The notes below the pieces were generated by a model, which had not been told where the DNA came from, did not search any database, and saw only the letters and a program-made list of their open reading frames with translations. A stretch of DNA of 64,000 nt from Tetramitus jugosus (lineage: Eukaryota > Heterolobosea > Eutetramitea > Acrasida > Vahlkampfiidae), in NCBI GenBank assembly GCA_937625935.1, contig OW569352.1, positions 62,001 through 126,000 of the forward strand, read 5' to 3'. The translations under genes and the position numbers were made by a program. Positions 1,616 through 21,871 of this stretch are shown here, one piece after another; within the stretch, counting starts at the first letter, position 1; each line of letters opens with the position of its first letter.

Positions 1616-1631
1616 GAAACACAATCGTGGG

Positions 1632-2154
1632 TTTTTTTTTTTTTTTTTAATACAACAAATGGTGCTCACGCACCACGTTGCGGAACTTTTATTTTTCTTT
1701 TGCGTGAGAGCGGGCTTGCCTGCTCTCAATTGTCTAACATGATGTGGTGCTTGCCCAGTGGAGTGGCAGGCCTACGCAACAGGATTCATTCTCTTCTTGG
1801 AATGTTGTTTTGATCCCTTCTTCAGGGATTCGTTGCGAGGGCCTCCACTACCGTCTGGAGCACCACTGGTGAGGTCAGATGGCTCCGTAGTCCTAGCCAG
1901 TTGGTAGGACCTACGAAGAGCACCTGACTTGATACTGGCCAACCTGGCCGGGAGCTTGTTGGCAGCAGTGTCACCAACGGTGACACGTGCTGATCGCTTC
2001 TTGTGTTCGTTGAGTTGGGGACTCTGTAACTCACAGTCGGGGTTACTGAGATCCAACTCAACTGGATCTTCTTCGGTGGTTGTGCTTCTTGCACGGTCCA
2101 CCATGATTGCTCGGGCAGCAATCTCTTTCTTGACTTTCTTGAATACCTCGGAGG
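1632..2154 (-). mobile_element. 5'-truncated LINE-type retroelement (ORF1 3' part, 3'UTR and poly-A)
   Basis: On the minus strand this is the last third of a LINE ORF1, about 130 nt of 3'UTR and a 17-nt poly-A (poly-T at 1632-1648). It is nearly identical to 8635-9154, with only scattered substitutions, so the two copies are recent relatives. Perfect 17-bp direct repeats (GAAACACAATCGTGGGT) flank it at 1616-1632 and 2155-2171, the mark of target-primed reverse transcription. The 5' truncation falls inside ORF1, just after the codons for SEVF. The insertion lies 30 bp upstream of the tRNA-Ala gene. Identity, poly-A and duplication are seen directly; the mechanism is established for non-LTR elements. 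Confidence 0.9.
1772..2154 (-). pseudogene. LINE ORF1 C-terminal fragment
   Basis: This frame carries the C-terminal roughly 127 residues of the ORF1 protein whose longer copy lies at 8775-10058. It starts at SEVFKKVKKE and ends in the same basic tail, KKRMNPVA. A few residues upstream of the junction come from host DNA by read-through of the target-site duplication. It is a relic and probably makes no functional product. Confidence 0.8.
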
Positions 2155-2201
2155 GAAACACAATCGTGGGTCCGGAGCATAATAGCTAAGAATAGTATCA
2201 A

Positions 2202-2274
2202 GGGGTCATGGCTCAGTTGGTAGAGCGCGTGCTTTGCATGCATGAGGTCCAGGGTTCGATTCCCTGTGGCTCCA
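2202..2274 (+). tRNA. tRNA-Ala (anticodon TGC)
   Basis: A full cloverleaf can be folded. The 7-bp acceptor stem is GGGGTCA/TGGCTCC with two wobble pairs, the D-stem is GCTC/GAGC, the anticodon loop is TTTGCAT with TGC at the anticodon, and the T-stem is CAGGG/CCCTG with loop TTCGATT. The A discriminator is at 2274 and a T-rich terminator (GTTTTGC) follows. No intron is present. A LINE fragment ends 30 bp upstream. Confidence 0.95.
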
Positions 2275-2324
2275 GTTTTGCATTTTTGGCCAAGGTGATA
2301 AGAAAAAGCCAGCATTCATATAAC

Positions 2325-3686
2325 TCACGTGTTGTTATTGCTACAAAATATAGTCGAAATTGCAGAGATGAGATACTTCAACTCTCGTTTTGTTTGGATC
2401 TCCTCTGTGCCATGAAAGTCAACCGTAATTCCACTCGAGTAAATTCTCTCCAGTTGAAAATGCTTGCTGTCTAACACATAGAAGTGATAGGAATTTCCAT
2501 AAACCAATACACCCCACACGAAATCTGTAGCTTCATTGACTCTGTGATAGGTCAACCGTTGATCCCACAGTGCCATCAAATGCAAATACAGTTTCATTTG
2601 CAATTGTTCAAAATGGGAGGTGGAAACAACTGGAGACTCCACTCGATCACTCACCTGTATCACTCCAAGTGGTACTTGTGATGCATTTCCATGTCCATTC
2701 ACACCAATGTCAGCAGTATCACTACCGCCCTTGTAGTACACAAAATCTACCTCTCCATGAACTGTCATCTTGGCGCTATTATTTGTCATTGTACAACCAT
2801 CGGAATGACCATCATGATGCTGTTCAGATGCACATAATTCATGCATCTGTAAGGACAACGGAGCATTCATTTCAAAACATAGGCCAACCTTATTATTCTG
2901 ATGACGACGACAATGACGCTCTTCATCACAGCTTTCCACAATTCTGAAACACTCCATGATGACTTCATTGAGAAACAAGTGAAACACGTGATGATTCCAC
3001 CTTCTTGTTCGATTCATGAGCAACACCAACCTGTCATATAGATTATCAACATGTTGCAATGTAATCGTACTTGAAATTTTTCGTCGTTGTGCTTCAAATC
3101 TCTGCTTTTGTTCATTGTTGTTAGTGTTGCCATGATCGATTGATGCCAAAGAGTTGTTGAATAAATCTCGAGACAATTGTTCAAACGAAATCGACCACTG
3201 TCCCTCATCATCATCATCATCAGTGTCATTCTCATCACTGTTCATTTTCATCATTGGTCTAGTTCGATCATTCATCAACAACAACAATCCAATCTTTTTC
3301 TTTGCCTGTTGAAAAGTGTTGATTGTTGTTGGAGAATTCTCTCCTGATGCATGAGAGGTCTTGTCACTCAGCATGTATTGGTATTGGTATGGACTGCTAT
3401 TGATGATGGAAGATAAAAGCTTTTCATGTGAATGGGCGTCAATGAGACAATGGGAGTTGTGCAACAGTGGGTACAAGATGCGAGAGAGGTTACCTCCTGA
3501 TGCATGAGAGCTCGTGCCTGCTTCTGTGGCAATGGGTGATGTTGTGGTCGATTTCATTTGAAGCGTGTTGTTTGGGTGGATTTCTTTCTCGGTTCGCCAG
3601 TGTCGAGTTCTGTTCGAGTTTGCACTCGAAGTGTCCAATTTACAAAATTGTCGGACAAACTCCCGCAAATTCCGCAGTGATCGCAC
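2325..3686 (-). CDS. Uncharacterised protein, possible degenerate PD-(D/E)XK-like C-terminal domain
   Basis: This is a 453-codon minus-strand frame. The N-terminal 200 residues are poorly ordered, rich in His, Asn, Ser and Asp, with one acidic Asp tract. The C-terminal 200 look folded. They contain GEVDFVYY, then GVIQVSD, then a helix (FEQLQMKLYLHLMALWD), then WGVLVYGNSYHFYVLD. The order of a strand with Asp, a second strand, a Gln-containing helix and a strand pair ending in a G-x-x-YxFY element recalls PD-(D/E)XK nuclease-fold domains of large protist families. The expected E-x-K is replaced, so activity is doubtful. The start at 3686 lies 97 bp from the divergent aminopeptidase gene; a later Met, for example the one before KSTTTSP, is also possible. 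The function is not known. Confidence 0.6.
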   Translation of the reverse strand: MRSLRNLREFVRQFCKLDTSSANSNRTRHWRTEKEIHPNNTLQMKSTTTSPIATEAGTSSHASGGNLSRILYPLLHNSHCLIDAHSHEKLLSSIINSSPYQYQYMLSDKTSHASGENSPTTINTFQQAKKKIGLLLLMNDRTRPMMKMNSDENDTDDDDDEGQWSISFEQLSRDLFNNSLASIDHGNTNNNEQKQRFEAQRRKISSTITLQHVDNLYDRLVLLMNRTRRWNHHVFHLFLNEVIMECFRIVESCDEERHCRRHQNNKVGLCFEMNAPLSLQMHELCASEQHHDGHSDGCTMTNNSAKMTVHGEVDFVYYKGGSDTADIGVNGHGNASQVPLGVIQVSDRVESPVVSTSHFEQLQMKLYLHLMALWDQRLTYHRVNEATDFVWGVLVYGNSYHFYVLDSKHFQLERIYSSGITVDFHGTEEIQTKRELKYLISAISTIFCSNNNT

Positions 3687-3783
3687 ATTGTTTTTGTAGA
3701 GCAGACTTGTTTTTCTCCCAATTCAAGCCAACACAACAAGCAAAACAAATCCCTCTCACACAGTTTCTCTCAATCACGCAATC

Positions 3784-5358
3784 ATGCCATCTGATTTAAT
3801 CATTGGTGTCAAGTCCAACAAGGTCAATGACAACACTACCACTGTCACCCTCTCCACCACTGGTCAATCCGTCTTTAGCTCCAAATTCCTCTCCAGTGCC
3901 TTCTTGCAAAAGAACAAGTGGGACAATGGCAAGGTGCGTATCTGGTACAACTCTCAAGATGCTTCCCTGTTCAATGAACAGTATAATCAATTGAGCAATG
4001 ACCTCCAAAGAGTTGCATTCGTTGCTTATGAAAGCACAGTAGAAGCTTCCAAGTTGTTGGAAGTGGTTCACTTGAAGGAACAGTTTGATTTGAGTGGTAT
4101 CGAGGTTAATGAAGCTTCCATCGATACTCAAAACAGAGTTCGTGATGCTGCTACTGCTGCTTTGAAGACACTGTTTGATGATGACAGAGAGCTTGCAAAG
4201 GAAGTGGCTGTGGATGATTTTGATGGAAATGCTCAGTATGCAGCAGAAGGTGCCTACTTGAGCAACTATCAATTCTATTTGGATGAAGCAAAGCAACAAA
4301 AATTGAAGCAAACAGAGTTGAGCTTGTTGTTGAGTGGAAACAGTGATTTGGCATCTGCTTGGACCAAGGGAAAGATTATTTCTACGAGTCAAAACTTTGC
4401 CAAGTGGTTGGAAGAGTTGCCAGCCAACTATTGTACTCCAACACTGTTCTGTGAGTTGGCTCAAAAGCGTCTCGGTGGATCCACCAAGGTTCAAGTCGAG
4501 ATTCATGACGAAAAGTGGGCCAAGGAACTGAACATGAACAGCTACTTGTCTGTTTCTTCCGGATCTGATGAACCACCAAGAGTCTTGGAACTCAAGTTCC
4601 TCAACAATCCAAACAAGACGAATGGAGAGATTGATTTGGCATTTGTAGGCAAGGGTGTTACATTTGACTCTGGTGGTATTTCCTTGAAGCCTGGACCAGA
4701 TATGAAGCTCATGAAGGCTGATATGGGTGGTGCAGCTACTGTTGTTGCCTCTGTTTTGGCTATTGCTGAGCTCAACTTGCCACTCAATGTTGTAGCTGTC
4801 AATATGATGGTGGAGAACATGATCAATGGTCGCGCAACTCGTCCAGGAGACGTTCTTACTGCATCCAACGGAAAGACTATTGAAATTGATAACACTGATG
4901 CTGAGGGTCGTTTGGCTCTTGCCGACGGTTTGGTCTATGTCTCCAAGCAATACAAGCCAGATTACTTGATTGATATGGCTACTTTGACCGGTGCCATTGG
5001 TGTTGCTATTGGAGCCACAGCTGCTGGTTGCTTCACAAACAGCAACAGCACATGGAAGTTGTTGGAGGCATCTGGTTATGAGACGAATGAATTCTTGTGG
5101 CGTATGCCATTGTTCAGAACTCCATACAAGAAGCAATTGAAGGCCTTGTCTGCAGATTTGAACAATATTGGTGGTTCTGCTGGAGGTAGTTGCACTGCTG
5201 CAGTCTTCTTGGCTGAATTCGTTGATCACTCACTTGTCAAGAACTGGGTCCACTTGGATATCGCCAAGGTTGTCATTCCAAAGAGCGACGAATGTGGAAC
5301 TGGTCGACCAACGAGAGCTGTCGTTCGATTTGCAGAAAAGTTGGCCAACAGAAATTGA
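3784..5358 (+). CDS. Leucyl aminopeptidase, M17 family
   Basis: This 524-residue metallo-exopeptidase removes N-terminal amino acids from peptides. The C-terminal catalytic half has the classic M17 metal site: K290 in VGKGVTFDSGG, D295, D313 in MKADMGG, and D372/E374 with catalytic R376 in NTDAEGR. Family knowledge assigns two divalent metals to these side chains. The N-terminal about 190 residues form the more variable M17 regulatory domain. Length is typical for the family. No clear targeting signal is visible, so a cytosolic location is likely. The first ATG after a short AC-rich leader is used. It is divergent from the gene ending at 3686, with 97 bp between starts, so they share a promoter region. 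Confidence 0.96.
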   Translation: MPSDLIIGVKSNKVNDNTTTVTLSTTGQSVFSSKFLSSAFLQKNKWDNGKVRIWYNSQDASLFNEQYNQLSNDLQRVAFVAYESTVEASKLLEVVHLKEQFDLSGIEVNEASIDTQNRVRDAATAALKTLFDDDRELAKEVAVDDFDGNAQYAAEGAYLSNYQFYLDEAKQQKLKQTELSLLLSGNSDLASAWTKGKIISTSQNFAKWLEELPANYCTPTLFCELAQKRLGGSTKVQVEIHDEKWAKELNMNSYLSVSSGSDEPPRVLELKFLNNPNKTNGEIDLAFVGKGVTFDSGGISLKPGPDMKLMKADMGGAATVVASVLAIAELNLPLNVVAVNMMVENMINGRATRPGDVLTASNGKTIEIDNTDAEGRLALADGLVYVSKQYKPDYLIDMATLTGAIGVAIGATAAGCFTNSNSTWKLLEASGYETNEFLWRMPLFRTPYKKQLKALSADLNNIGGSAGGSCTAAVFLAEFVDHSLVKNWVHLDIAKVVIPKSDECGTGRPTRAVVRFAEKLANRN

Positions 5359-5500
5359 GTTCGCCACAAAATGAAGTCACATTCCTTCAGAAACAAGAAA
5401 TGAAGGAAACAGCTTTTTCCACGCCATCTGAGCATGCCGTAATTCAAATAAAAATTGAAGTGATCATCATCAAACAAACACCAAAAAAGATCACACTCAC

Positions 5501-6268
5501 ATGACAGCAGAACAATCTCCACAAACAGCACAACAATCCATTCCACTGACTCGATTGTTCGTGACTCAACCCAACAGTGCTACAAATGTGACCAAACCAA
5601 CAACACTCACACCAATGACAATGCCAATCACACCACCGACAATCACACCAACACTCACACCAACAGGTACATCTCTTGTGAGCGTCAACTCAAATAGTGG
5701 ACTTCCACTTCCAAACTTTCATACTCCAAAAATTTCAGACAAAGATGCCAGGCATGAGATCTCTGTTGAAGTCGTGCCTGGTGTTTTTAGTCTCATTCCC
5801 CAGTGCATACACAGTGGATGTTTCTATTACAATGTCGGTGACAGAATTCGTTTCCGATTGTGGAATCGCGGACCCCGCACACTGTATTATGCCCTGTTTT
5901 TTGTAAGCACAAAAAATAATGTTTGTCTGTTGCCGATCCATGGTGGTGGTGATACAGCAGAGGAAGCTTCTCCGCCGAGGGTATACAAGACGAGTATTTC
6001 AAGTCAAGATTTTGGCTCGTTTGAAAAAGATGAGGAGAGAGCCATTTTCATGCACACCAAGGAGCTACCAGATTGTGATTCAGAGGGGAAAACAAAGGTG
6101 ATTGTTGTGACGACGGCAGCAGATCCAACAAGTGTGGATATTCTGTCACGTATTGAATCACTGGGCTATGCGAGTCATTCAAGTCAGAGGCTAGTCAAGG
6201 GAGACGGTGTCGTTTATATTGAGAATTATGTTTTCTTTTCGAGCTTGGATGATTACATGGCCAGGTGA
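5501..6268 (+). CDS. Uncharacterised protein with DUF4384-like beta domain
   Basis: This 255-residue protein has a Thr/Pro-rich, probably disordered N-terminus (residues 1-80) followed by a folded domain. In the domain the order is GDRIRFRLWNRG, YYALFFVSTKNNVCLLPIHGG, a loop with an acidic stretch, then KTKVIVVTTAADP. This strand pattern (a property strand, a strand with short loop leading to LLP, and a closing VIVVTT strand) resembles DUF4384 domains, which often accompany kinases or caspase-like proteases. No such partner domain is present here. It follows the aminopeptidase on the same strand after 142 bp. AATAAA-like signals occur just after the stop (AAAATAAAAG). Domain assignment is tentative. 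Confidence 0.6.
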   Translation: MTAEQSPQTAQQSIPLTRLFVTQPNSATNVTKPTTLTPMTMPITPPTITPTLTPTGTSLVSVNSNSGLPLPNFHTPKISDKDARHEISVEVVPGVFSLIPQCIHSGCFYYNVGDRIRFRLWNRGPRTLYYALFFVSTKNNVCLLPIHGGGDTAEEASPPRVYKTSISSQDFGSFEKDEERAIFMHTKELPDCDSEGKTKVIVVTTAADPTSVDILSRIESLGYASHSSQRLVKGDGVVYIENYVFFSSLDDYMAR

Positions 6269-6432
6269 AGGAACAAAATAAAAGCATTGAACTGTTGACA
6301 AACAAAAACGACTAAAGAAGAAATGGGCTTAGTGATGGATACTCGTATTAGTGACTGCGTCTGTAATGACGTATTGAAAGGTATCCCAGAGTTGGTTCAA
6401 TAAAATTCTCTTGTGTTGCTACTTGAATGCAA

Positions 6433-7176
6433 TTTTTTTTCATACAATCATTTCGCTTGCTTTTCTCTACGAAGGAGAGTCGTGAGACATCTCCGTTTCA
6501 CCCCATTCACATAGGTTCTTGCTTTCTTACCGGCCACTCTTGTTTTGACCCCATTCGCTACCAGTCCGTTGGTGACATCTTCGATGGCATTTGTTTCTAT
6601 GCCCATCATACCCTTCAGAAATTCTCTACTCGTCCATCGCAAAGGACGCTTTTCCATCTTGCCATCCTTCAGTCTCACATTATCGAACCATATGTCGATA
6701 CATCTGTTGGCGGATACACCCATGCTGGTCAGCTCCGTACTGACTGCCAAAGTTAGACATCTTCTAGCATACACAGCCCTTAGGCATCGAATGAGGCAGT
6801 GCAACACACTTTCGGGTTCTTTGCAGCACCAGACACACATTGTGGGATCAGCACCCGTGCTCTTCAGACATCGAACAACTTCCTCCGTGTGGAGAGTGGA
6901 GAGTCTCACTTCTGACCTGAAGCTGGAACCATTCCAGTCTTCTTTCAACAGTGTGTGGGTACTTGAGAAAGCAGAAGTCTGCTCCACTGTAATTGGCATC
7001 CTTTTGAATCCACCAACGCTCGCTCTTCTCTACACGTGCATTCCTCTCCTGATCAAACAGGGACTGCAGATGTTCCCTACTCTCTGCTCGGAGGTTACCT
7101 TTGTACAGAGCAGGTTCATCTTTAGTGGTGGTTTGGTTTATGCACTGACAGGTCCTGACAGGATGGAACAAATCCA
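6433..7176 (-). mobile_element. LINE tail C: reverse-transcriptase C-terminus with poly-A
   Basis: On the minus strand this fragment carries the C-terminal part of a LINE ORF2, a short 3'UTR and an 8-nt poly-A (poly-T 6433-6440). Its 3' end reads ATTGTATG followed by the A-run. It is homologous to the neighbouring tail B (7186-8625) over the segment WW-IQKxxx...LEWF...TLH and the CxxC...HC box. It contains a frameshift, so it is dead. No target-site duplication matching its lower flank was found. Its upper edge at about 7176 is set by the start of the shared CTGTCAG sequence. Confidence 0.8.
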
Positions 7177-7177
7177 T
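6448..7177 (-). pseudogene. LINE reverse transcriptase C-terminus, frameshifted
   Basis: Two overlapping frames join to one protein segment. From 7177 the first frame reads to SETLHS near 6900. The second continues with TLHTEEVVRCL and then a zinc-knuckle-like box CVWCCKEPESVLHCLIRC, as found at the C-terminus of many LINE ORF2 proteins. The first frame aligns with tail B (WWIQKDANYSGADF against GWRIQKECLGVTDF). One indel near 6895-6915 therefore breaks the gene. The second frame extends about 110 residues beyond the knuckle, further than tail B does. Confidence 0.75.
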
Positions 7178-7185
7178 CTGTCAGC

Positions 7186-8625
7186 TTTTTTTTTTAAATA
7201 CAACCAATGGTTGCGCTGTTTATTCGTTGTTGTTTCTCTTCTACATGATGTAGCTGTTTATGACGGCAGAATGCCGTCACTGTTGCATTGTTTGTTGCTG
7301 GTGCTCGTAGATAAGACAGTAAAGAACTGTCTCTTGCTCGAAATTGCACTTCGGACATGTCGTATCCATATCCTCCACGCTATATAGATTCTTCACTACT
7401 GCCTTTGTGTGAAGTGTGTGACTTTTGACTTGGGCAACGAACCATTCCAGCTGTCTGGTCACCCTGAACGGACACCTCATAAATGAAAAATCAGTGACAC
7501 CCAAACACTCCTTTTGAATCCTCCATCCCAATTGTATCTCTGTACTGTCTGGTGAATACATTCCAGAGCTGTTTTTTTTTTCCGTGACTTCAAAGTTATC
7601 CCTGTACATTAGTACCGGCGGAGCTGCGGCCCTGTTCTCGTGCTTTTCATTGCACTGAAGCATTTCTAGATCCAAGAGGATGTTCCTATAACGCAAAGCA
7701 CTGATTCCGAAGTTGCCGTGAACTTTAACTAGCTCACTGTGCTTAATCCACTTACCCTCTCTTGTCAGCTGTTTCCTCAGGCTGATACCCATCTTGAAGA
7801 ACTTCTTGGCCACATCATTTGGTTGAGAAAAGGAGAGATTGCAACCAAGACAATCGACTTCATCACCATATGAAATTGTTAAACAGTTATTGTGCATCCG
7901 CTCCGCACACCATCTGAGATATGTGTGCTTGACCAACTCCAACCTATTGTTGGACTGAAAGACATTCTCCTTTTGGAATGTTTGCTGAAACTTGATCTCC
8001 TCAAGCGAGTCCAACATAAGTTTGTGAGCTTCGGTGTCACTCTTACCTCTCACCATATCCTTGATGAACCAGGCGGTTCTCACAAGGATCGACTGCTCGA
8101 TTTTGCGCAGACCAAATCCACCATTTTCACTTGAGACCTGCAACAAATCAGACGGGTACCGCCTCATAGCAACGGAGCCTTGTTTGATGAGCGCCTTCCC
8201 CATCTGGTTAACCTTCGTGATCCATCCTTTTGTCCAATGTGTGAATTCACACGCATAGAGGAACACCGGATGGATGCATGTGTTGATGATTCTTGCCACT
8301 TGCCTCGGAGTGAGTTTCATGATACTCAAACGGTTGATCACCCTCTTAACCTTATCTTGCGCCTGCTCCTTTTGTTTGGTTGTACAACCATTCAAGTTAG
8401 TGAAGAGCCCCAGTGCCCTGAAGGTTTTTTCACTGCCATTTGCTCGCACAACAACATTGTTGACCACTATGTTGTGCTCAGACCTTTTCCTACCCATCTT
8501 CCGGACATAGAGCTCCAGTTTGTTAGGGTGCATGACCATTTTGAGCATACCCAGCACTTCACTCATTTTGTTTACAGTCCTCTCAATGTCCCCCCTGTTG
8601 TTTGACATTAGGTTACAGTCATCCT
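7186..8625 (-). mobile_element. LINE tail B: 5'-truncated reverse transcriptase with poly-A
   Basis: On the minus strand the fragment begins within the RT catalytic box (GAT GAC, Asp-Asp) and ends in a short 3'UTR and a 10-nt poly-A (poly-T 7186-7195). The 3' end reads AACCATTGGTTGTATTT plus A-run, including a small hairpin. A 9-bp TCTGTCAGC lies at its lower edge (7177-7185) and again at 8626-8634, consistent with a target-site duplication later split by insertion of the ORF1 element. A perfect hairpin GACGGCA-TTC-TGCCGTC lies in its 3'UTR. Confidence 0.8.
7277..8608 (-). pseudogene. LINE reverse transcriptase (ORF2) thumb and C-terminal part
   Basis: This open frame of 443 codons lacks everything before the catalytic Asp pair: DDCNL precedes the first Met, and a stop lies just upstream. 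It reads through GDIERTVNKMSEVLGMLKM, typical of the palm/thumb following the YxDD box. It then has a long helical region and a C-terminal CPKCNFEQETVLYCLI zinc-knuckle-like box. The family tail present in copy C is missing. With no fingers or endonuclease domain, it cannot be an active enzyme. Frame integrity suggests a fairly recent insertion. Confidence 0.8.
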
Positions 8626-8634
8626 TCTGTCAGC

Positions 8635-10030
8635 TTTTTTTTTTTTTTTTTAATACAACAAATGGTGCTCACGCACCACGTTGCGGAACTTTTATTTTTC
8701 TTTTGTGTGAGAGCAGGATTGCCTGTTCTCAATTGTCTAACATGATGTGGTGCTTGCCCAGTGGAGTGGCAGGCCTACGCAACAGGATTCATTCTCTTCT
8801 TGGAATGTTGTTTTGATCCCTTCTTCAGGGATTCGTTGCGAGGGCCTCCACTACCATCTGGAGCACCACTGGTGAGGTCAGATGGCTCCGTAGTCCTGGC
8901 CAATTGGTAGGACCTACGGAGAGCACCTGACTTGATACTGGCCAACCTGGCCGGGATCTTGTTGGCAGCAGTGTCACCAACGGTGACACGTGCTGATCGC
9001 TTCTTGTGTTCGTTGAGTTGGGGACTCTGTAACTCACAGTCGGGGTTACTGAGATCCAACTCAACTGGATCTTCTTCGGTGGTTGTGCTTCTTGCACGGT
9101 CCACCATGATTGCTCGGGCAGCAATCTCTTTCTTGACTTTCTTGAACACCTCGGAGGTGTTCAATACTAGCTCGAAGATTGCTCTGTTACGAGCATCCTC
9201 ATCAATGGTGTTGTTGGTTGGCTCTTGGGTGACCGTAGTTGGAGTGGCGGGATGGGACTCCGGCATGATCGACTCCCAGTCATCGGTCGTAGACGGAGTC
9301 GAAGGTTCGAATTCGGAGATTCGCTCCGGCGTCCTTGGAGACGGGGATGCGAGGGGAATCCGGTTGACGGAAGCCATATCTTTTAACACACTGACTTGGT
9401 GGCGCAGGTCGTCCACCACAGCCAGTAGCTCTTGGTACATCTTGGTCAGCCTCTTGCTGACAGCCTTGACCGGATCACGTGGGCGTGGAAGGAAGCGCTT
9501 TGCTTCCACCTCCACTGGCATGGATTGAACGTTCCGAAGCAAAGCTTCGGCATACGTTTCGGACTCCATCACAACAAAGGCGGTGTCGTGCTTCTTGAGC
9601 ACGTTCTTGACCTTTGTTGTGCCAAGCATGACCTTGATGTCGTCCTCCGTCTTACCTTTGACACCGTGGAGGACGACCTTCTTGGCACAATCTACGTTGT
9701 GCTTGAGTGCTGCCTTGCAGCCACTCATCTTCTTGTTGCGGTTGAAGGATTCAACAAATGGGTAAATGTTGTCATCAACAACGGTTACCCACGCAACAAA
9801 CCTCTTGGGGCCCTTCTTGATGACTTGGACCCTGGTGAGCAAATCACCAAAATCCAAGCCAATCTTCTTGGCCAAGGCAGCCTTGGGGGAGTCATCGCAC
9901 TTTCCAGTGATGATGACCTCCTTGCTGCTTGGCGCTGTTCCTCTTGGTGCTGTGGTCCACACAGCATAGCGTGGATTCTCATACTCACGAACAACAGGGG
10001 TGTGTGTTCGTTTTTTCATCGGCGTTTTTT
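8635..10030 (-). mobile_element. LINE-type ORF1-only element A, with poly-A and target-site duplication
   Basis: The minus-strand element contains one intact ORF1, about 130 nt of 3'UTR and a 17-nt poly-A (poly-T 8635-8651). A 16-bp direct repeat TCATCCTTCTGTCAGC flanks it (8619-8634 and 10031-10046). No RT frame lies between ORF1 and the poly-A. The fragment at 1632-2154 shows the same ORF1-to-tail junction, so this is the real structure of the element, not a local deletion. It inserted at the 5' end of tail B. Its 5' edge is 40 bp upstream of the tRNA-Lys gene. Whether the native 5' end is complete cannot be told. Confidence 0.85.
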
Positions 10031-10058
10031 TCATCCTTCTGTCAGCGAAAGTCGTCAA
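8775..10058 (-). CDS. LINE ORF1 protein (RNA-binding, RRM-like)
   Basis: This 427-codon intact frame encodes a basic protein. Two RRM-like segments can be seen at about residues 46-120 (starting SKEVIITGK) and 128-200 (starting AKKVVLHGV, with TAFVVMES as a central strand). A helical or coiled stretch follows (KRLTKMYQELLAVVDDLRHQV, broken here at 20 residues as KRLTKMYQELLAVVDDLRH), then a Ser/Pro/Thr linker and a Lys/Arg-rich tail. RRM plus coiled coil is the usual layout of LINE-1-type ORF1 nucleic-acid chaperones. The first 8-13 codons are target DNA: the Met at residue 9 lies in the target-site duplication, so the native start is uncertain (Met 9 or Met 14). Confidence 0.75.
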   Translation of the reverse strand: MTTFADRRMKKTPMKKRTHTPVVREYENPRYAVWTTAPRGTAPSSKEVIITGKCDDSPKAALAKKIGLDFGDLLTRVQVIKKGPKRFVAWVTVVDDNIYPFVESFNRNKKMSGCKAALKHNVDCAKKVVLHGVKGKTEDDIKVMLGTTKVKNVLKKHDTAFVVMESETYAEALLRNVQSMPVEVEAKRFLPRPRDPVKAVSKRLTKMYQELLAVVDDLRHQVSVLKDMASVNRIPLASPSPRTPERISEFEPSTPSTTDDWESIMPESHPATPTTVTQEPTNNTIDEDARNRAIFELVLNTSEVFKKVKKEIAARAIMVDRARSTTTEEDPVELDLSNPDCELQSPQLNEHKKRSARVTVGDTAANKIPARLASIKSGALRRSYQLARTTEPSDLTSGAPDGSGGPRNESLKKGSKQHSKKRMNPVA

Positions 10059-10086
10059 TAAACACTAAAAACAAATTAAACAACAA

Positions 10087-10159
10087 GCCTCCCTAGCTCA
10101 GTCGGTAGAGCGTTGGGCTTTTAACCCAACGGTCGGGGGTTCGAACCCCCCGGGAGGCG
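10087..10159 (+). tRNA. tRNA-Lys (anticodon TTT)
   Basis: The acceptor stem GCCTCCC/GGGAGGC is perfect. The anticodon stem TTGGG/CCCAA encloses CTTTTAA with anticodon TTT. The T-arm is CGGGG or GGGGG with TTCGAAC. Discriminator G is at 10159 and a T-run follows within 10 nt. No intron. The ORF1-only LINE ends 40 bp upstream. Confidence 0.95.
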
Positions 10160-10452: not shown

Positions 10453-11154
10453 TTAGCTTCCTCCTCTTGGAGATTTGTTGATTGTGTCAACGTTCAGTTG
10501 CAAGAACCTCCTGGGTCTTTTGCGAATTCCTTTGGTGTTTGTTGAAACCGAATTGGATGATGAAGAAGAGGGAATTGAGCTTTGACTCTGAGGTTGTGGT
10601 TTCCTTGGCACATAATGGAGAAACTTGAAATTTGGACATTCATTCCCATGGATTTTGAGATTTCTTTGGAATGAATATTGAGCAGTAGCTAGTCGTTGTT
10701 GATCTGGGAGAGGCATGGAAAAGAGTCGAGTCAGTGTTTGAACAGTGTCTGGACTCAGCTCCTTCTCACTCTTTGGCTCCACTTCATTGACCATGTACCA
10801 AACACTTCTCCTTCTATTGTCTTGTGACAACTGGTGGGGCCATCGACCTAGACCCATCTTGTAAAATCTCCTCTTAAGAGTTGACAAGGAGACACCCAAC
10901 TTTTGAGCAGCCAAGCGTTGTGGGCAACCAAAGTACTTTGCAATCTCAGTTCTTGTTATTTGAATCTTGTTGCGGAAGGAGGTTGGTTTGGACGGATTCA
11001 TTACACGGGACTTCGAAGTTAGTTTGTCACTTTCAGATTGAGGGGAGGGAGGAAAGAAGTAGCGGGCTTCTGAAGAGTTGATACTTGGTTCTGTGGCTTG
11101 TGGATGAGCTTCGATTTCAGTTAGTTTAGCACTAGAGTCAATGGTTACTTTCAT
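10453..11154 (-). CDS. RWP-RK-type protein, array copy 1
   Basis: This 233-residue putative DNA-binding protein has its domain at residues 57-112. A helix starts at IQITRTEIAKYF, followed by CPQRLAAQKLGV, then SLSTLKRRFYKMGLGRWP (RWP at 104-106). In classic RWP-RK proteins RWP is followed by x-RK; here it is HQ. Three further family motifs follow: a segment around SEKELSPDTVQTLTRLFSM, FKFLHYVP, and a basic IRKRPRRFLQL near the C-terminus that could serve nuclear entry. RWP-RK proteins regulate nitrogen responses and gamete programmes in plants and algae; the role in this organism is unknown. It is the first of six same-strand paralogues. Start chosen by alignment of N-termini among copies. 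Confidence 0.85.
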   Translation of the reverse strand: MKVTIDSSAKLTEIEAHPQATEPSINSSEARYFFPPSPQSESDKLTSKSRVMNPSKPTSFRNKIQITRTEIAKYFGCPQRLAAQKLGVSLSTLKRRFYKMGLGRWPHQLSQDNRRRSVWYMVNEVEPKSEKELSPDTVQTLTRLFSMPLPDQQRLATAQYSFQRNLKIHGNECPNFKFLHYVPRKPQPQSQSSIPSSSSSNSVSTNTKGIRKRPRRFLQLNVDTINKSPRGGS

Positions 11155-20333: not shown

Positions 20334-21164
20334 TCACCTTTGTTCGGAATCTTCCTCGGGTGAAATGGGTGAAGAATGAGAGCAAGTTTCTTTCGTCTTG
20401 AATCGAATGTGCGAGTCATGACTTATGGACAGCTTTTGTCGTTTTCTGTTGGCTTCTCCATTCGTTTTTACAGGGGTGTGTGTTTCATCATCGTCCAGCT
20501 GCAAGAACCTTCTTGGTCTTTTGCGAATTCCTTTGGTATTTGTTGCCGAATTGGATGATGGCGAAGAGGGAATGGAACTGCTTTGACTTTGAGGTTGTGG
20601 TGATGTCTCATCTCTTGGCACATAATGGAGGAATTTGATGAAGCTTGGAGACTCATTTCCATTGAGGGACTGGTTTCTTTGTGATTGTGAGAGTTGAGTA
20701 GTGGCAAGTCGTTGTTGTTCTTGGAAGGTCATGGAAAAGAGGCGAGTCAATGTTTGAACAGTGTGAGGACTGAGTTCCTTCTCACATTTCGACTCTGTTT
20801 CATTGAGCATGTGCCAAACACTTCTCTTCCTATTATCTTGAGTCAATTGATATGGCCATCGACCAATATCCAACTGATAGAATCTTCTCTTGAGTGTGGA
20901 CAATGAAACACCAAGTTTTTGAGCAGCCAGACGCTGTGGACAGTGAAAGTATTTTGACATCTCTTCTCTTGTGATTTGAATTTTGTTGCGGAAGGAGGTT
21001 GGCTTGGCTGGGTTCATGACACGGGAAGTCCGAGATGCAGTAACTGGTTTGTCATTTTCAGATGGAGGGATGCCATCTTCTTCTGTGATCCTTGGTTCGG
21101 TGACTTGTTGGCGCAGTTGAGGCTTGGCTGCCAGTTGAGCAGCTTTGGAGGGTATGGCAGGCAT
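20334..21164 (-). CDS. RWP-RK-type protein, array copy 5
   Basis: With the start at 21164 (MPAIPSKAAQL) the protein has 276 residues. A longer frame begins at 21371, but its extra 69 residues have no counterpart in other copies. The DNA there matches the upstream block of copies 4 and 6, so I reject it as coding. The core has TREEMSKYFHCPQRLAAQ, SLSTLKRRFYQLDIGRWPYQ and SPHTVQTLTRLFSM, then FIKFLHYVP, IRKRPRRFLQLDDD and a basic GEANRKRQK tail. It is most similar to copy 4. One domain change is GI to DI before GRWP. Confidence 0.85.
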   Translation of the reverse strand: MPAIPSKAAQLAAKPQLRQQVTEPRITEEDGIPPSENDKPVTASRTSRVMNPAKPTSFRNKIQITREEMSKYFHCPQRLAAQKLGVSLSTLKRRFYQLDIGRWPYQLTQDNRKRSVWHMLNETESKCEKELSPHTVQTLTRLFSMTFQEQQRLATTQLSQSQRNQSLNGNESPSFIKFLHYVPRDETSPQPQSQSSSIPSSPSSNSATNTKGIRKRPRRFLQLDDDETHTPVKTNGEANRKRQKLSISHDSHIRFKTKETCSHSSPISPEEDSEQR

Positions 21165-21871
21165 TACTAGGTTACAATATTGTGGGTAGTTGTTTGTTTT
21201 TGGTTCGTTGCTTCTATACCAATGCAAAGAGAACAGGTTTTTATAGCTCGCTTGGTACAAGTGACTTCGACATGTCACTTTGGACCCTTCGTGAGGGAAG
21301 GGAGAGCGATAGCCCCAACTTTGGCTGAAAAAAACAAAAAGAAAGAGGAATCTAACGGGAAGTTGCTTCAATGCACACCTGGAACGTGTTTATGCGCGAT
21401 GAATCGTTTTTCAATTGATTAGGAAATGGTTTTCGCTCCCAATGATGGTTGGTATTTTTCAATGATCGATCCGAGATGTATCCGCATGACAGCGGAAGAA
21501 GTCCTTACTAAAAATTGACTAAAAAAGAAACTTTAGCCTTTATGTGAGAGCGAAACGAAAGGACCAAAAAAATTCTACACAGGATAACAGATATCGCAGA
21601 GAACACTTGGATTTTCACAACTATAAATTTGACACTAAGATCTTAAAAGGACTCAAGAACACGAAACAGTAATGATGCTTGGCTTCCCGTTTTGTGCAAT
21701 TCATTGGTTCGTGACTTGAGCGAAAGGTTCAAATCGGAATACACTCAGATCAGTTCGACGAGGGAAATGGAGAATAATGTCAGTGTTTCCATTCATCCGG
21801 CAACCAAGATGGAAGCACTATGCCATCACGGGCGAGAGCTAGAGAAACGGCGTTTTGAATAATGCCGAGTT
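21165..21871. promoter_or_regulatory. Upstream region of RWP-RK copy 5
   Basis: Shared blocks occur at 21262-21298 (ACATGTCACTTTGGACCCTT), about 21519 (AAAAAAGAAACTTTAGCC) and 21681-21715 (GGCTTCCCGTTTTG to ATTGGTTCGTGAC). AGCGAAAGGTTCAAATC follows immediately at 21719. No gene is seen. Confidence 0.5.

Follow-up and report, generated by a model that had tools for sequence, protein, structure and literature searches.

The main finding of this study is that a group of related non-LTR retrotransposons (LINEs) very probably uses target-primed reverse transcription to insert at a fixed site upstream of genes transcribed by RNA polymerase III (Pol III), a reading to which we assign a probability of about 0.88. 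As far as can be read from the DNA itself, the copies display a fixed distance to their target, a single orientation, target-site duplications that vary from locus to locus, stacking of one element behind another, and autonomous copies side by side with copies that carry ORF1 only. The insertion address lies approximately 40-56 bp in front of tRNA genes, which represent many isotypes, and more rarely in front of 5S genes. The analysis concerns a stretch of 64,000 nucleotides, here called the window (G000:C9:62001-126000), and the 26.35-Mb genome in 56 contigs to which it belongs.

Insertion loci at tRNA-Ala and tRNA-Lys in the window

The features of the two loci, with window coordinates, are as follows.

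1616..1632, no strand: target-site duplication, left copy, 17 bp (exact repeat)
1633..2154, minus strand: 5'-truncated copy of the ORF1-only retrotransposon (L017), with its poly(A) end on the left (98% identity to element positions 874-1395)
2155..2171, no strand: target-site duplication, right copy, 17 bp (exact repeat)
2202..2274, plus strand: tRNA-Ala(TGC), the target (ARAGORN)
6432..7169, 5' boundary approximate, minus strand: presumed oldest layer at tRNA-Lys, a LINE ORF2 C-terminal fragment with its own T-run (tblastn to ORF2 at 6448-7108; 3'-end motif L031:654)
7170..7185, no strand: third, diverged copy of the tRNA-Lys 16-bp target site, 13/16 bases (repeat comparison)
7186..8618, minus strand: middle layer at tRNA-Lys, a LINE 5'-truncated ORF2 (RT C-terminal part) with poly(A)/own T-run (ORF2 match)
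8619..8634, no strand: target-site duplication, left copy, 16 bp (exact repeat)
8635..10030, minus strand: presumed newest layer at tRNA-Lys, a full-length 1,395-bp ORF1-only retrotransposon (L001; genome copy comparison)
8775..10019, minus strand: ORF1, 414 aa, predicted to form two RRM-like domains and a long helix (prediction)
10031..10046, no strand: target-site duplication, right copy, 16 bp (exact repeat)
10087..10159, plus strand: tRNA-Lys(TTT), the target (ARAGORN)

The original prediction placed a 17-bp duplication 30 bp before tRNA-Ala and a 16-bp duplication 40 bp before tRNA-Lys, and the exact repeats at 1616-1632/2155-2171 and 8619-8634/10031-10046, together with tRNA starts at 2202 and 10087, agree with both statements. 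Counted from the 5' end of the element, the gap to the tRNA is 47 bp at tRNA-Ala (L017) and 56 bp at tRNA-Lys (L001). Both elements lie on the minus strand and both tRNAs on the plus strand, so that the elements are indeed antisense with their 5' ends nearer to the tRNA, and the two Arg tRNAs of the window (40091 and 60706) are free of insertion as had been stated, with no blastn match (E 1e-3) to LINE-bearing loci in the 400 bp upstream. Two other parts of the prediction had to be revised. The element is not the 3' part of some longer LINE but a complete ORF1-only unit, with 22/30 loci matching from positions 1-5 to 1387-1395. The tRNA-Lys locus is a stack, with three occurrences of the 16-bp site (7170, 8619 and 10031). 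Since an ORF2 fragment and the ORF1 element lie between these copies, the site has been used twice by LINEs. The two site copies that flank the ORF1 element match exactly and the outer copy has diverged, suggesting that the insertion nearest the tRNA-Lys gene is probably the newest. Such LINE stacks provide a layered record of insertions.

Copies across the genome and their Pol III targets

Distances from copies to tRNA genes, measured genome-wide, bear out the predicted targeting. A query consisting of the ORF1 element's 3' part gave 43 rows, which amount to 40 copies after three short fragments were dropped; 30 of these were taken with 1.5-kb flanks, and flanks were added for nine more, C43:243504 being left out. 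We found 23 of the 40 copies 40-63 bp upstream of a tRNA gene (median 56 bp from the element 5' end; L025 is 56 bp away after allowing for an internal deletion, raw 119 bp, the distance of C8:44145 comes from coordinates, and L016, at 40 bp, has an ambiguous 5' end). Two more lie upstream of 5S genes, with a gap of 50 bp for L028 and, counted from the end of the match, of 56 bp for C10:501321. Every one of these 25 copies is antisense to its Pol III gene and has its 5' end towards it. Another 12 sit, past a short spacer, behind the poly(A) end of a LINE in the same orientation, as judged by eye (L004, L007, L012, L013, L021, L022, L024, L027, L086, L089, L090 and L091). In all, 37/40 copies either adjoin a Pol III gene or follow another antisense LINE, and the remaining three, L023 (rearranged), L088 and C43:243504, were left unassigned. 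Even when all 1,593 first-look tRNA candidates are counted as genes, the chance of finding 23/40 copies in a 36-bp window is 5e-51. The targets are tRNA genes of many isotypes with differing flanks. Target duplications, which differ in sequence among loci, were found in 21/30 loci, 17 of them 15-20 bp long, by a finder that permitted shifts and mismatches and was run without a chance control. Long one-directional piles of LINEs were also seen at G000:C4:342714-354094, with at least five matches upstream of a single tRNA gene, and at G000:C38:176311-187223.

The same pattern was examined from the side of the targets. From 1,593 tRNA candidates (Rfam RF00005) the best 63 were scored, and 53 were taken as nuclear; the ten rows on contigs C54 and C56 were dropped as mitochondrial, an assumption made because both contigs carry identical tRNA positions. 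These contigs are perhaps a single mitochondrial genome assembled twice (G000:C54 and C56). For 5S genes (Rfam RF00001), the best 47 of 772 candidates were scored. LINE positions combined the 150 matches of an ORF1 N-terminal search, extrapolated to residue 1, with the ORF2 matches, and contig extents were approximate. Within 4 kb, 18/53 scored tRNAs have an upstream antisense LINE and none (0/53) has an upstream-sense or downstream one, whereas the scored 5S genes show 5/47 upstream antisense, three downstream antisense and one downstream sense. Within 200 bp, an upstream antisense LINE accompanies 13/53 tRNAs and 2/47 5S genes (15/100 together, among those scored), and a downstream sense LINE accompanies 1/47 scored 5S genes. 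When LINE positions were randomised 500 times, the same 200-bp count over the 100 tRNA and 5S genes had a mean of 0.14 and a maximum of 2.

A count with fewer LINE matches gave 12/53 tRNAs. Among the other 41, the 150-bp flanks of 19 were inspected, and 10/19 match LINE-bearing loci, the matched part not necessarily being LINE; 6/10 of these matches end 42-57 bp from the tRNA and the others 71-106 bp (the match of L110 is weak and far from the tRNA, and a 29-bp match of L106 was left uncounted). LINE-like sequence thus lies upstream of at least 26/53 tRNAs, a count in which 22 of the 53 lacked sequence inspection. Four 5S genes have a LINE approximately 48-56 bp upstream. Outside that position the orientation bias at 5S genes is weak, because they have fewer matches than tRNA genes (2/47 vs 13/53) and some downstream LINEs. 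The 47 scored 5S genes are scattered over many contigs and both strands, and LINEs are rarer there than at tRNAs.

ORF1-only and autonomous elements

The ORF1-only retrotransposon is a discrete unit of 1,395 bp, full-length at 22/30 loci, with an intact ORF1 and its own poly(A) and without ORF2. Its leader before the ORF1 ATG is 11 nt (bases 10030-10020 in the element at tRNA-Lys). The pN/pS of ORF1 is 0.16 across 14/30 loci, chosen as intact copies, which from sequence comparison points to purifying selection on ORF1 in this family. A second ORF1-only family probably exists as well, to judge from the matches: ORF1-only copies number 40 in one family and approximately 43 rows in the probable second, versus 22 ORF2 rows with frames of at least 900 aa. 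Pfam gave no match to ORF1 above its cut-offs, a sequence-profile search of solved structures returned three rows but nothing interpretable, the best (8vd6) depending on a 27-residue stretch that does not pass alone, and a similarity search found eight ORF1 relatives, none named as a known element. The arrangement recalls HAL1 (half-L1) of mammals, a LINE derivative with ORF1 only that is presumably moved by ORF2 in trans. To our knowledge HAL1 has no target specificity, and the present element differs from it in being target-specific and in its ORF1 architecture. In a survey of 3' ends, pairing over six positions is possible in 44/59 distinct ends, with the best offset picked by script and without shuffles; the survey pattern itself demanded TTGTAT before the poly(A), so that this part of the shared motif was built in.

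Autonomous relatives, which carry ORF1 together with an ORF2 encoding an APE-type nuclease and a reverse transcriptase (RT), follow the same pattern upstream of tRNA genes. In L063, ORF2 matches Exo_endo_phos (PF03372, E=7e-6) and RVT_1 (PF00078, E=8e-24), and these LINEs show the APE and RT pair, the poly(A) end, the variable 5' truncation and the target duplications of APE-type LINEs. As to the C-terminal zinc-finger-like motif that characterises ORF2 of TRE5, a zf-RVT match to the ORF2 fragment at 6448-6999 (E=0.23) is below cut-off, and L061 has no such match at E 0.1. In L063 and L064, the only copies whose coordinates were compared, ORF2 starts with an ATG that shares a 7-nt overlap with the ORF1 stop, and in L062 the mechanical ORF1 and ORF2 frames overlap by 133 nt.

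The C-terminal part of ORF2 has 99 matching rows in the genome. Across 50 ORF2 loci (L031-L060 and L065-L084), 21 tRNAs have an ORF2 match upstream within 1 kb, all antisense; the gaps, measured from the protein match, are 26-83 bp in 16/21 and 121-867 bp in the others. In L034 a tRNA lies 1.2 kb off on the opposite side of the ORF2 copy. The flanks L065-L084 are hand-picked 5'-truncated rows out of 69 ORF2 rows without a locus. Thirteen of these 20 flanks contain a tRNA, two (L070 and L079) hold a further LINE with no tRNA reached behind it, and in the flanks examined of the partial copies L083 and L084 Rfam matches neither a tRNA nor any other family. The remaining three (L068, L081 and L082) were not assigned; L082 has an ORF1-type match 50 bp upstream of a tRNA that is beyond the stretch examined. 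Six ORF2 flanks without a tRNA gave no match at E 0.5 when searched for RNA families, and in L048 a 5S gene lies 48 bp from an ORF2 fragment.

Ten of 11 long copies reach a tRNA (L061-L064, L094, L096-L099 and L101, the last by coordinates), including the 5'-truncated L061 and L064 with its broken ORF1; the other, C25:180274, has neither LINE nor tRNA in the flanks examined. In all eight long copies with a readable start, 60-88 nt separate the ORF1 ATG from the tRNA (L062 81, L063 66, L094 67, L096 88, L097 63, L098 65, L099 60 and L101 64 nt), and the match of L064 begins 52 nt from it. Assuming the usual gap to the tRNA, the leader in these copies is at most approximately 40 nt. Because the leader is so short, there is little room for an internal promoter upstream of ORF1.

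Proposed mechanism and relation to known elements

We propose that the elements dock on the Pol III pre-initiation complex through one of their own proteins, probably ORF1. The ORF2 endonuclease would then nick the tRNA-sense strand at approximately -40 and the other strand at approximately -56, and the RT would copy the RNA starting at its poly(A) end. The ORF2 of autonomous families would move ORF1-only RNAs in trans. Sites are used repeatedly, as at tRNA-Lys, so that elements stack. Recognition of the Pol III machinery with TFIIIB as the docking partner is the most likely arrangement, as TFIIIB is common to tRNA and 5S genes and adjoins the cut, and the LINEs at 5S genes are consistent with this route.

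Several other explanations have to be weighed against this targeting. It is improbable that the elements enter any nucleosome-free promoter and that Pol III genes are merely the most open ones. tRNA genes are usually depleted of nucleosomes, as such an explanation requires, but the insertion window is narrow, the promoters surveyed being those of Pol III genes. We consider it very unlikely that a sequence-specific endonuclease reads a motif in the tRNA 5' flank, in the manner of R1/R2 on rDNA. Among solved structures, those nearest in sequence to the RT are R2 proteins; however, the nuclease is of the APE type, the spacing is equal at 5S genes, and by eye no motif is common to the duplications and flanks. 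Still less credence is due to random integration followed by survival of only the harmless insertions near tRNA genes in a gene-dense genome, even though the genome is compact and the window holds many long uninterrupted ORFs, since survival alone does not predict the 40-63 bp window, the single orientation or the reuse of the same 16 bp, nor does random integration fit the absence of downstream or upstream-sense LINEs within 4 kb of the 53 scored tRNAs. That the copies are duplications of a single old tRNA-LINE unit hardly deserves consideration, for although many copies are 95-99% identical, isotypes, flanks and duplications differ, 5S genes are hit, and varied truncation points stand at the same distance.

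If targeting through the Pol III machinery is accepted, the target may also supply the promoter, with copies transcribed outward from the open upstream region of the tRNA gene. We raise this tentatively. The LINEs carry no 5' regulatory region, which leaves room for such a source, and an internal promoter within ORF1 is the main alternative. With a borrowed promoter, targeting would be needed for expression and not only for safety, which would account for both the strict orientation and the constant spacing, and the community would consist of ORF1-only elements keeping ORF1 under selection and of rarer ORF2 suppliers. Elements that are nearly leaderless make the source of the promoter directly testable.

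The closest parallel is found in Dictyostelium discoideum, where TRE5-A (TRE5-A.1 and TRE5-A.2) is described as inserting approximately 40-54 bp in front of tRNA genes, with the opposite direction of transcription; TRE5 elements also target 5S genes, form tandems and carry ORF1 and an ORF2 with APE and RT, their ORF1 interacts with TFIIIB proteins and their integration requires the B box, and a non-autonomous derivative apparently moves in trans, ORF1 being present in the assay element modelled on TRE5-A.2 (PMC5911963, PMC5391098). The present elements resemble TRE5 in their antisense position upstream of tRNA genes (here 40-63 bp, slightly wider and further out), in also hitting 5S genes (here more weakly than tRNA genes), in an ORF2 with APE and RT, in tandem stacks and in a non-autonomous partner. 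Unlike TRE5-A, they have no 5' A-module promoter or long 5' UTR (the leader being 11 nt) and no -1 frameshift for ORF2, whose ATG overlaps the ORF1 stop in L063 and L064, and they have an ORF1 predicted to contain tandem RRMs and an ORF1-only family apparently under purifying selection. Because two features of TRE5-A were not found and no ORF1 relative is named as a known element, which speaks neither for nor against common descent, we did not file these elements as TRE5. Convergence with TRE5 is likely, although not proven. NLTR-B of Polysphondylium pallidum is a non-LTR element 39-64 bp upstream of tRNA genes (PMC5911963); it has an RNase H domain and three ORFs, whereas ORF2 of L061 gives RVT_1 only in Pfam at E 0.1. 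Among LTR retrotransposons of yeasts, Ty3 and Tj1 target Pol III genes, Ty3 via TFIIIB and Tj1 also at 5S genes (PMC5006619, PMC5911963), but these are integrase-based elements inserting near the transcription start site. In the table of a 2018 review, every non-LTR element that occupies a fixed position relative to tRNA genes comes from a dictyostelid (PMC5911963), and we found no further ones at a fixed tRNA-gene distance in the open-licence PMC literature.

The host, in contrast to that of TRE5, is probably a member of Heterolobosea and not Dictyostelium. A single aminopeptidase in the window has Naegleria lovaniensis (43%) and Willaertia magna (39%) as its best named relatives by score, which makes the predicted distant protist lineage likely, although an 819-aa sea-urchin protein scores higher, other animal and fungal proteins are close behind, and metagenome proteins reach up to 99%. 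LINEs of N. lovaniensis are given as 190 copies and 0.25% (PMC6125883). The recurrence, in a second and probably distant lineage, of this spacing and orientation, of side-targeting to 5S genes, of stacks and of a non-autonomous partner suggests that LINEs of compact genomes can arrive repeatedly at Pol III targeting as a solution, with ORF1 as its likely adaptable part.

Other reverse transcriptases were seen in passing. Weak RT matches below the family cut-off lie near contig ends (C3:2089, C17:2337, C9:603492, C10:606104 and C48:379851) in frames of 241-1,273 aa and may represent an RT element of subtelomeres. Further RVT_1 matches are limited to profile positions of approximately 60-205 (C28:223019, C15:386571, C30:32495, C35:278212, C14:166470 and others) and therefore perhaps belong to a different reverse-transcriptase family; some of them are close to LINE copies. 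In the window, the proteins at 10453-11154 and 20334-21371 have a stretch in common, as seen by eye, which we take to resemble RWP-RK regulators.
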